Part shown: positions 41,680 to 45,178 of the stretch, piece after piece
How positions within the stretch are numbered: position 1 is the first letter of the stretch
Layout: the number at the start of each line of letters is the position of its first letter
Assembly: GCF_014202435.1 (NCBI RefSeq)
Contig: NZ_JACHGU010000002.1
Span: 186,001-250,000 of the forward strand
Direction of reading: 5' to 3'
DNA: 64,000 nucleotides
Source of the DNA: Pseudoxanthomonas broegbernensis
GTDB taxonomy: Bacteria; Pseudomonadota; Gammaproteobacteria; Xanthomonadales; Xanthomonadaceae
The notes under the pieces: model-generated
The model's database searches: none
The model's input: the letters and a program-made list of their open reading frames with translations, nothing else
What the model was told of the DNA's origin: nothing
Made by a program: the position numbers and the translations under genes

Positions 41680-42906
41680 TCAGTCGTGCGCCGCCGCCGC
41701 CGCGGCCTCCGGCTGCAACCCGGTATAGCGGGCGCGGGGGCGGATCAGGCGGCCTTGGGCCTGCTGCTCCAGCGCATGGGCCAGCCAGCCGGCGAGGCGG
41801 CTGGTGGCGAACATCGCCAGCGCATGGGTGGCCGGCAAGCCGAAGGCCAGGCAGATCGCGGTGAGCATGAAGTCGATGTTGGGCTGCCGTCCGCTGGCCT
41901 GGCCGGCCGCGTCGATCACCGTGTCGAGCAGCCGCATCGTCGCCGGGTCGACCGGCGCGGCGCGCAGCATGGACAGCAGTTCGGCCGCGCGCGGATCGCC
42001 GTCCGGATACAGGGCGTGGCCGAAGCCTGGCAGGTCTTCTCCCTGGCGCCAGTGGGTGGCGATGAAGCGGCCGATGTCGCGGGACTGCCCGGCTTGCTCG
42101 ATCAGCATGTAGGCGCGCGTGGCCGCGCCGCCATGGCGCGGGCCGGACAGCGCGGACAGCCCCGCGCACACTGTGGCGTGCAGGTGCGCTCCGGTGGAGG
42201 CGACCACGCGCGCGGCGAAGGCCGAGACGTTGAGTTCGTGGTCGGCGCACAACACCAGCGCGGCGCGGACCAGTTCGGCGAAAGCCGCATCGCCGGGGCG
42301 CCATGTCTGGCCCAGCAGGCGATGCACCGGGCCGGCGGGCCGGCTGGCCACCAGCAGCGCGGCGTTCTGCCGCAGCAGGGTGGCGGCCACCGCGCGGCGC
42401 GTGGCCTGGTCTGCGCGAAAGGAGTGCGGCACCTGCAGCGCCAGCAGCGGGATCACCGCCATCGCCCGTGCCAGCGGCGGCAGTTCGGCGTCGAGCGCCA
42501 GCGCAGCGACCCGCGCGGGCCAGTCGCCGGGCGGCTCGACGAACGGATCCTGGCTGCCGCAGTCCCACAGCAGGCGGGCGGTGTCCTCCAGGGTGGCGCC
42601 GGCGCGGACCGCGGCCACGGCCGAGCGGCCGCGGTAGTAGGGCCCGTCCGGCCGGATCAGCGAGATCCGCGTCTCCAGTACCGGCAGGCCGCGATCCAGG
42701 CTCTGTGCCGCGCCACGCGCCGGTCCGCGGCCCAGTCGCTTGCGCTGCGCCAATTGTTCCACCTCGCGGCGCAGGTAGACGCGGCTGCGGTGATCGCGGC
42801 CCGGCCGCGATTCCAGCAGCCCGCGGCTGACGTAGGCGTAGAGCGTGGCCGGGCTGATGCCCAGCAGCCGGCAGGCCTCGACGGCGGGGATCAGATCGCT
42901 ATCCAT
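41680..42906 (-). CDS. Citrate-synthase-like protein with N-terminal helix-turn-helix (putative regulator of prpBC)
   Basis: 408 residues. Residues about 6-56 form a MerR/excisionase-like DNA-binding domain: helix-turn-helix ACRLLGISPATLYAYVSRG, then a wing rich in Arg (RDHRSRVYLRREVEQL). The rest is a citrate synthase fold, closest within this window to PrpC. The catalytic set is intact: His223 (CADHELN), His258 (SGPRHGG), Asp345 (PNIDF). GFGHALYPDGDPRA replaces Prp[15 protein letters not shown]. It is transcribed away from prpB, where many relatives have the activator prpR. I infer a transcription factor that senses a substrate or product of PrpC; residual enzyme activity is possible. Databases often label such proteins simply citrate synthase. 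Confidence 0.8.
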   Translation of the reverse strand: MDSDLIPAVEACRLLGISPATLYAYVSRGLLESRPGRDHRSRVYLRREVEQLAQRKRLGRGPARGAAQSLDRGLPVLETRISLIRPDGPYYRGRSAVAAVRAGATLEDTARLLWDCGSQDPFVEPPGDWPARVAALALDAELPPLARAMAVIPLLALQVPHSFRADQATRRAVAATLLRQNAALLVASRPAGPVHRLLGQTWRPGDAAFAELVRAALVLCADHELNVSAFAARVVASTGAHLHATVCAGLSALSGPRHGGAATRAYMLIEQAGQSRDIGRFIATHWRQGEDLPGFGHALYPDGDPRAAELLSMLRAAPVDPATMRLLDTVIDAAGQASGRQPNIDFMLTAICLAFGLPATHALAMFATSRLAGWLAHALEQQAQGRLIRPRARYTGLQPEAAAAAAHD

Positions 42907-42914
42907 CGAATGTA

Positions 42915-42941
42915 TTGATTCTTCAGATCAAGATTGATCAA
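42915..42941. promoter_or_regulatory. AT-rich inverted-repeat cluster, candidate operator
   Basis: TTGAT (42915-42919) and ATCAA (42927-42931) form an inverted repeat spaced by 7 bases, and a palindrome TTGATCAA lies at 42934-42941. It begins 9 bases from the regulator start and is 140 bases from prpB. The AT content stands out in this genome. Candidate binding site for the helix-turn-helix protein at 41680-42906; inference. Confidence 0.5.
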
Positions 42942-42962
42942 CTGGTGACAGGGTGCCACATT

Positions 42963-43034
42963 GCCGCTGCCGCTGCCGCTGCCGCTGCCGCTGCCGCTGC
43001 CGCTGCCGCTGCCGCTGCCGCTGCCGCTGCCGCT
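42963..43034 (+). repeat. Hexanucleotide tandem repeat (GCCGCT)x12
   Basis: Twelve uninterrupted perfect copies of GCCGCT, 72 bases, ending 47 bases before the prpB ATG. It lies between the candidate operator and the prpB RBS, so it is in the promoter/5' leader of prpBC. Perfect short repeats of this size are prone to slippage. Six bases per unit means copy changes do not shift any reading frame but change spacing by about half a DNA helical turn. Confidence 0.95.
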
Positions 43035-43081
43035 GGCACGCCGCGCCCTCGCATTCCTCCCAGCCAGGCCGAGGTCCGAAC

Positions 43082-43969
43082 ATGACCATGTCCCCGTCCG
43101 CAGGCGCCCGCTTCCGCGCCGCGCTGACCGCCGAGTCGCCGCTGCAGGTGATCGGCGCGATCAACGCCAACCACGCCCTGCTGGCGCGGCGTGCCGGCTA
43201 TCGGGCGATCTACCTGTCGGGCGGCGGCGTGGCCGCCGGTTCGCTGGGCCTGCCGGACCTCGGCATCAACACGCTTGAGGATGTGTTGATCGACACCCGC
43301 CGCATCACCGACGTGTGCGAGCTGCCGCTGCTGGTGGACATCGACACCGGCTTCGGACCGAGCGCATTCAACATCCAGCGCACGGTCAAGTCGCTGATCA
43401 AGGCCGGCGCGGCGGCCTGCCACATCGAGGACCAGGTGGGCGCCAAGCGCTGCGGCCACCGGCCCGGCAAGGAGATCGTGCCGGTGGCCGAGATGGTCGA
43501 CCGGGTCAAGGCCGCGGCCGACGCGAAGACCGATCCGGACTTCTTCCTCATCGCGCGCACCGACGCCATCCAGGTCGACGGGGTGGACGCGGCCATCGAG
43601 CGCGCCATCGCCTGCGTGGAGGCCGGCGCCGACGGCGTCTTCGCCGAGGCCGCCTACGACCTGGACACCTATCGCCGCTTCGCCGGGGCGGTGAAGGCGC
43701 CGGTGCTGGCCAACATCACCGAGTTCGGCAGCACCCCGCTGTTCTCCCGCGAGGAGCTGGCCGCGGCCGGCGTGGCGATCCAGTTGTTCCCGCTGTCCGC
43801 GTTCCGCGCGGCCAACCGGGCCGCCGAGCGCGTCTACGAGGCCATCCGCCGCGACGGCCACCAGCGCGGCGTGGTCGACGCCATGCAGACACGCGAGGAA
43901 CTGTACGAGCGCATCGGCTACCACGCCTTCGAGCGCAGGCTCGATGCGCTGTCGGCGGCGAAGCGATAG
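43082..43969 (+). CDS. prpB: Methylisocitrate lyase
   Basis: Final step of the methylcitrate cycle: 2-methylisocitrate to pyruvate plus succinate. 295 residues of the ICL/PEP mutase superfamily. Motifs: SGGG (46-49), metal-binding DIDTGFG (Asp86, Asp88) and KRCGH (122-126) with catalytic Cys124. The start at 43082 has GAGG at 43071-43074. The frame is also open through the hexamer repeat to a GTG at 42953, which would add a Cys-Arg repeat; that start is rejected because the extension is unlike any lyase N-terminus. First gene of prpBC. Confidence 0.95.
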
Positions 43970-44020: not shown

Positions 44021-45178
44021 ATGAGCGAAGCCACCCCTGCCGCATTCAAGCCGAAGAAGTCGGTCGCACTGAGCGGCACGGTCGCCGGCAACACCGCGCT
44101 GTGCACCGTCGGCCGCAGCGGCAACGACCTGCACTACCGCGGCTACGACATCCTCGACCTGGCCACGGCCAGCGAGTTCGAGGAGGTGGCCCACTTGCTG
44201 GTCCACGGCACCCTGCCCAACCGCGCCGAGCTGGCCGGCTACAAGGCCAGGCTGAAATCGCTGCGCGGCATTCCCGCCGCGGTGAAGGCGGTGCTGGAAC
44301 GGTTGCCGCCCTCGGCGCATCCGATGGACGTGATGCGCACCGGCGTATCGGCGCTGGGCTGCGTCTGCCCGGAAAAGGACGACCACGGCCATCCCGGCGC
44401 GCGCGACATCGCCGACAAGCTGATGGCCAGCCTCGGCTCGATGCTGCTGTACTGGTACCACTACAGCCACAACGGCCGCCGCATCGAGGAAACGGCGCCC
44501 GGGGAAGACTCCATCGGCGGCCACTTCCTGCACCTGCTGCATGGCCGGGAACCGCACGAATCGTGGGTGCGTGCGATGCACACCTCGTTGATCCTCTATG
44601 CCGAGCACGAGTTCAACGCCTCCACCTTCGCCGCGCGGGTGATCGCCGGTACCGGCAGCGACATGCATAGCTGCATCGCCGGGGCGATCGGCGCGCTGCG
44701 CGGGCCCAGGCACGGCGGCGCCAACGAGGTCGCCTTCGAGGTGCAGCAGCGCTACGACACCCCCGACGAGGCCGAGGCCGACATCCGGGCGCGGGTGGAG
44801 CGCAAGGAAGTGGTGATCGGCTTCGGTCACCCGGTCTACACCGTGGGCGATCCGCGCAACCAGGTGATCAAGCAGGTGGCGCGCGAACTGTCGGACGAGC
44901 AGTCCAACCGGAAGATGTTCGACATCGCCGAGCGGCTGGAAACGGTGATGTGGGACATCAAGAGGATGTTCCCGAACCTGGACTGGTTCAGCGCGGTCAG
45001 CTACCACATGATGGGCGTGCCCACGGCCATGTTCACCCCGCTGTTCGTGCTGGCCCGCACGTCCGGCTGGAGCGCGCACGTGATCGAGCAGCGGGCCGAC
45101 GGCAAGATCATCCGGCCCAGCGCCCACTACACCGGCCCGGAGAACCGGGAGTTCGTGCCGCTCGACCGGCGGGGGTGA
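44021..45178 (+). CDS. prpC: 2-methylcitrate synthase
   Basis: Condenses propionyl-CoA with oxaloacetate; 385 residues. Catalytic residues: His196 ([10 protein letters not shown]), His231 (RGPRHGG), Asp321 (PNLDWF). The assignment to PrpC rather than GltA rests on the short length and on linkage to prpB. The start at 44021 has GGGAGC upstream. 51 bases separate it from prpB, so co-transcription is likely. No acnD, prpF or prpD follows in the window; a gene of unknown function does. Confidence 0.94.

Follow-up and report, generated by a model that had tools for sequence, protein, structure and literature searches.

A perfect twelve-copy hexamer array past the predicted prpB promoter of Pseudoxanthomonas broegbernensis, probably a slippage expansion within the 5' leader

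We report that twelve GCCGCT units, repeated without a single mismatch, lie between the predicted promoter and the coding sequence of prpB in Pseudoxanthomonas broegbernensis. We consider it probable that this array is a young, lineage-private expansion, by slippage, of a TGCCGC seed just past the prpB -10, that it makes up most of the leader, and that its effect on prpBC is likely small. It is the comparison with relatives that tells leader from promoter at this site: the array lies past the predicted promoter, is private, and is one of several in the genome.

The array was analysed in a window of 64,000 nucleotides (the whole stretch of DNA studied). A script count gives 12 copies of GCCGCT at 42963-43034, and Tandem Repeats Finder together with inspection of the sequence gives a 100% perfect array with period 6 and 12.3 copies at 42962-43035 (forward strand), where the unit reads TGCCGC and a CCG triplet alternates with a CTG triplet. 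The longest perfect array in the window is thereby 74 bp, whereas 20 simulations of the window with a third-order Markov model never exceeded 22 bp, i.e. the head-to-tail array goes beyond chance length, as a slippage repeat does, and what chance could produce is far exceeded by (GCCGCT)x12. Between the array and the prpB ATG (43082) there are 47 bases (43035-43081), and 21 bases (42942-42962) separate it from the 15-mer ATCAAGATTGATCAA (42927-42941); in these respects the sequence and Tandem Repeats Finder agree with the initial annotation, which had described GCCGCT x12 without mismatch 47 bases before prpB and 21 bases past a candidate operator. Curated models identify prpB (methylisocitrate lyase, 43082-43969, forward strand) and prpC (2-methylcitrate synthase/citrate synthase, 44021-45178, forward strand) above their cut-offs: for prpB, PRK11320 with 509 bits vs 353 and TIGR02317 with 401 vs 354, and for prpC, NF009006 with 706 vs 550.

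Operator-like element, predicted promoter and divergent citrate synthase

For comparison, 97 prpB upstream regions were taken from 17 genomes of the genus and from the best 80 loci in genome contigs. A pattern holding ATTGATCA selected 31 element loci, which after merging of identical regions corresponded to 29 distinct regions (28 besides our own), and these were aligned on TTGATC. The ATTGATCA core, as the selection pattern, is conserved by construction, whereas the TTGAT in the left part of the element and the TGnCA(C/G)ATT block were unselected. The conserved operator-like element, ATTGAT N7 ATCAAGATTGATCAA, spans 42914-42941 (forward strand); its left-part TTGAT is present in 28/28 distinct relatives, TCAAGATTGATCAA is identical in all 28 (as regards its core, a result of how they were selected), and the 15-mer has a single site in our genome at up to two mismatches.

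At a fixed distance past the element the relatives carry the block T20 G21 n C23 A24 (C/G)25 A26 T27 T28, in which T20, G21, A24, A26 and T28 are present in 28/28, T27 in 27/28 and C23 in 26/28. In the ungapped comparison of the 28 relatives the information content falls from 2.0 bits at +28 through 1.32 at +29 to 0.45 at +30, the last being the position where the array starts, and a later column, +42, is strongly conserved again (G in 27/28). The array starts at the end of the conserved block because the last T of CACATT (42962) doubles as the first base of the TGCCGC register. Judging by conservation and spacing, TTGATC, 17 bases and CA(C/G)ATT preceded by TGn can be interpreted as a -35 with an extended -10. 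The predicted -35, TTGATC (42934-42939, forward strand), overlaps the operator-like element and has a fixed 17-base spacing to CA(C/G)ATT in the relatives, and the predicted extended -10 is TGC CACATT (42954-42962, forward strand), with column conservation in 28 relatives pointing to its function. By eye, the two hexamers match the consensus at 4/6 and 3/6 positions only, and a consensus scan of 42850-43150 for a sigma-70 site reported none, the predicted -35/-10 included. The layout suggests that prpB transcription starts upstream of the array or at its beginning.

The position of the predicted promoter bears on one claim of the initial annotation, namely that each copy shifts promoter and operator by half a helical turn; copy number would then rotate the operator relative to the promoter and toggle prpBC. 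Six bases are about half a turn of the DNA helix. The element and the predicted -35/-10 are, however, both upstream of the array, with their spacing fixed in 28/28 relatives, so added copies move neither operator nor promoter, and the consensus scan, which included the 47 bases past the array, found no promoter there. Given the predicted promoter, the repeat does not lie between an operator or UP element and a core promoter, as it would in a spacing rheostat. Mechanisms that act through spacing are known, e.g. the Helicobacter pylori sabA T-tract (PMC4081817), but with the predicted promoter upstream of the array we rejected helical-phase switching here and regard it as highly improbable.

Divergently from prpB, a 408-residue protein is encoded at 41680-42906 (reverse strand), in which domain matches place a helix-turn-helix (PF12728) before a citrate synthase domain (PF00285). 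A helix-turn-helix citrate synthase is present at 31/31 loci with the operator-like element (our own genome and two same-species repeats included) and at 0/66 loci without it; since these 66 span other genera and orders, the association speaks for co-inheritance at the locus and is not proof of binding. The protein is 31% identical to PrpC and retains GPRHGG, GFGH and PN-D, the His, His and Asp of which we take to be the citrate synthase active site. It is likely to be the local regulator, and is a candidate for a regulator that has taken over an enzyme fold from the pathway itself. Through its link to a single conserved element, the helix-turn-helix citrate synthase is a candidate metabolite-sensing regulator, and it is a better lead than the array. 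Among the matches listed from the open-licence literature, none concerned a regulator joining a helix-turn-helix to a citrate synthase.

Two observations concern the control of prpB elsewhere. At one locus (L025, genome G014) the regulator is 84.5% identical to that of the window and PrpB only 65% identical, and prpB may possibly have been replaced there beside its regulator. Moreover, the Stenotrophomonas/Xanthomonas loci L042, L044, L045, L047 and L055 are without the element and have, by eye, TTGGCA-N6-TTGC upstream of prpB, which to us resembles, presumably, a sigma-54 promoter; it would seem, as judged by eye from these element-free loci, that an exchange of prpB control took place within the family.

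The predicted leader and its dependence on copy number

If the predicted -10 is right, transcription starts at about 42969, i.e. some 7 bases past it, and the array is leader, the predicted prpB 5' leader being 42969-43081 (forward strand) on the basis of the comparison of relatives and a distance count. Between the -10 and the first in-frame ATG there are 33-90 bases (median 52) in 27/28 relatives (in L022 no in-frame ATG was found, and it was excluded from the count), and here there are 119, or 59 with two copies, i.e. with ten removed. These comparisons make it most likely that the array is 5' leader. A longer 5' leader had been put forward in the initial annotation as the alternative to a switch, and it is this alternative that fits best, the array being past the predicted promoter in the comparison of relatives.

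An open frame runs from GTG 42953 through prpB, and initiation there would turn the array into an in-frame (Cys-Arg)n N-terminal extension of variable length. This GTG, however, precedes the end of the predicted -10, the matches to the two methylisocitrate lyase models begin at residues 3 and 8 when numbered from ATG 43082, and the leaders of the 27 relatives with an in-frame ATG are short. On these three grounds we rejected the coding extension, to which we assign next to no probability. With respect to known RNA families in the leader, the single match was isrG (42876-43047; 18 bits vs a gathering score of 100, E 0.01), which was rejected as far under the gathering score.

In the computed fold, CCG and CUG triplets alternate along a regular leader hairpin, to which every copy adds approximately 2.8 kcal/mol of fold energy (-18.3 with 1 copy, -72.2 with 20), and each strand of the array DNA is also computed to fold. 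The CCG/CTG alternation would thus give a regular hairpin in both DNA strands and in the RNA, which would favour slippage. Leaders with 8 and 16 copies share the first 49 bases past the -10 as well as the last 95 bases ahead of the ATG; copy number therefore leaves the bases flanking the -10 and the ribosome site unchanged. The modelled openness is constant at 13 copy numbers between 1 and 20, both for a candidate Shine-Dalgarno sequence identified by eye, GAGGT (43071-43075, forward strand; 0.22-0.24), and for the AUG (0.58-0.59); since GAGGT is largely paired throughout, the fold is little informative on absolute translation.

We propose that replication slippage expands a short TGCCGC seed adjoining the prpB -10 box, and that the array is transcribed and forms most of the prpBC 5' leader. 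Copy number would then alter only the length of a self-contained hairpin, whereas the operator-promoter spacing, the beginning of the transcript and the surroundings of the ribosome site would stay as they are, and prpBC would be left unaffected, or its mRNA yield would change in a graded manner like that at Haemophilus hmw1A P2. The composition of the array (72 bases: 36 C, 24 G, 12 T, A absent) would also suit a C-rich Rho entry site in the leader, with a strength that rises with copy number and attenuates prpBC; its hairpin would hinder Rho, however, and the leaders of relatives are without the array, and we regard this as very unlikely.

Origin of the array and hexamer arrays elsewhere

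Scanning of the 96 other prpB upstream regions (at most 400 bases each, with only the longest array per region recorded) gave a longest perfect array, for units of 1-9 bases, of at most 18 bp in 96/96. In P. kaohsiungensis (L020/L092) a two-unit TGCCGCTGCCGC lies directly past the equivalent -10 and has the form of a seed, and P. koreensis (L014/L063) has TGCCGGTGCCGC in the corresponding upstream region; among the 97 regions, each of these two pairs is the same species from two sources. The prpB genes of two genomes of the genus match those of named strains exactly, which places P. koreensis and P. kaohsiungensis in this genus. A perfect array here, no array at the site in 96/96 other regions and a two-unit seed in a relative (L020/L092) are what slippage would leave behind, and they speak for the slippage origin assumed in the initial annotation. 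There, equal copy number in relatives had been named as the outcome that would count against the proposal: equal copy number was not observed, but the relatives are without the array altogether, an absence that speaks for a young expansion rather than for a conserved switch.

The nearest prpB among the genomes of the genus has 90% DNA identity. In the prpB tree our genome is on a poorly supported fork and has no close sister, and the age of the expansion is therefore bounded no better than "within this lineage". As sampled, the expansion is private to this lineage.

Our own genome (G000) was sampled over 864 kb of 3.47 Mb, comprising 40 stretches of 20 kb (contigs 1-5) and the window; the sample is non-random in that one stretch (L176), which holds the first of the arrays described below, was picked on an earlier hit. 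It contains four perfect hexamer arrays with at least 5 copies (range 5-15.5), including the one at prpB. Specifically, (ATACCG)x5 (L176 10615-10644 = G000:C3:260615-260644) is situated approximately 17 bp before an azlC-like ORF, for which no match in 16 sister genomes reaches E 1e-40; (CAGCCG)x6.7 is inside an ORF; and (GGCAAC)x15.5 (L192 19212-19304 = G000:C2:569212-569304), which is longer than the prpB array and deprives it of the rank of longest in the genome, starts 9 bases past an ORF stop codon. The ORF before this last array resembles, by eye, a lytic transglycosylase. The sister loci of the transglycosylase-like gene, searched as whole loci, are without a hexamer array above 3 copies in 16/16, and on this comparison the GGCAAC array is likewise private. 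That arrays also occur past a stop codon and inside an ORF makes neutral slippage the simplest origin.

GGCAAC in at least 5 copies is present in 8/17 genomes of the genus, our own included, and copy numbers in the arrays retrieved from sisters range from 6.3 to 14.5; the reversed-letter control is uninformative for this unit, because reading it backwards only rotates it. In the draft genome of a sister (G006), contigs C29 and C32 have GGCAAC arrays at their very first bases, and such arrays may therefore break assemblies and be undercounted. The copy count at prpB itself rests on one assembly, and the repeat length could in principle be an assembly artefact. Sister assemblies, however, hold arrays of similar length, and short reads of the usual length exceed 72 bp; we give this explanation very little credence.

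In our whole genome, TGCCGC in at least 3 copies is found at one other place only, with 3 copies. Among 297 genomes of the family, at least 5 copies are found in 10, our own included, with 5 to 8 copies elsewhere; the reversed letters, used as control, gave 8/297 (hand count of the table). Ten TGCCGC arrays outside our genome were viewed by eye, of which at least two look coding and most others intergenic. Hexamer arrays are a dispersed class in the family, and an array in a leader thus needs no special cause. The 12 copies are nevertheless the longest TGCCGC array among the 297 genomes, so the array at prpB may have a special cause.

These data also bear on the array as a contingency locus of the hmw1A P2 type, in which frequent length change, with stepwise less prpBC mRNA from a longer array, would give a mixed propionyl-CoA capacity. 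The array is perfect and sufficiently long to slip, but 0/96 other prpB upstream regions have an array here, the positions of the other arrays in the genome show leader position to be no rule, and the modelled openness of the ribosome site does not change with copy number. We consider a contingency function unlikely; a genetic switch at the array is possible but not indicated. Taken as a whole, the interpretation given in the initial annotation is partly supported.

Comparison with known repeat systems

Haemophilus influenzae hmw1A P2 is the closest studied layout: a heptamer repeat there overlaps the -10, is in the 5' UTR, and reduces expression the longer it becomes (PMC8262952). The two have in common a perfect short tandem repeat and, if the prpB promoter is as predicted, also a first unit overlapping the -10 and a location in the 5' UTR (PMC8262952 for hmw1A P2); this putative likeness would count in favour of a contingency locus at prpB, where the predicted -10 ends at 42962, the first base of the array register, and where the consensus promoter scan was negative. 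They differ in that hmw1A P2 has a heptamer at an adhesin gene, copy number varying among isolates and an expression change demonstrated by experiment (PMC8262952), whereas the prpB array is a hexamer in a metabolic operon of one genome, next to a predicted -10 and known from sequence alone. Since repeat number changes expression at hmw1A P2, in what would be an equal layout, the "small effect" at prpB is a judgement, and by analogy a graded effect of copy number on prpBC is possible.

The AGAT tract of Moraxella catarrhalis uspA2, with mRNA changes of up to 3.37-fold with copy number (PMC7302503), lends some further weight to a contingency locus. It is alike in being a tandem repeat upstream of an ORF (132 bp), and differs as a tetranucleotide at a surface protein gene with measured mRNA changes (PMC7302503). 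Against such a function, the authors of a study on H. influenzae did not regard hexanucleotide arrays as mediating phase variation (PMC2651432). The H. pylori sabA T-tract rheostat resembles the prpB array in being intergenic and near a promoter, with a length that could tune output; however, the T-tract shifts the core promoter relative to UP-like elements (PMC4081817), whereas the prpB array is past the predicted -10.

Repeats in related genomes are exemplified by the GGGNATC repeats of Xanthomonas, which are alike in having units of 6-9 nt across related genomes and in being over-represented in non-coding regions; they differ as G-quadruplex-capable heptamers with four units preferred (PMC4692102), while at prpB the unit is a CCG/CTG hexamer present 12 times. 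CTG/CAG repeats form hairpins and tend to expand with length (PMC3310812), which suits a slippage origin of the prpB array. Among the matches listed from the open-licence literature, none concerned repeats at prpB or in Pseudoxanthomonas.

Finally, in the reading closest to hmw1A P2, the array would be a leader-length rheostat for an operon of core metabolism, in a bacterium that is not known to show phase variation, with slippage setting the size of the 5' hairpin and hence the dose of the methylcitrate pathway. This we regard as quite improbable; if true, the hexamer arrays dispersed across the genus would offer similar tuning at further genes. If copy number did tune prpBC, repeat-based tuning would extend beyond the surface proteins of germs adapted to humans and reach central metabolism in a different kind of bacterium.
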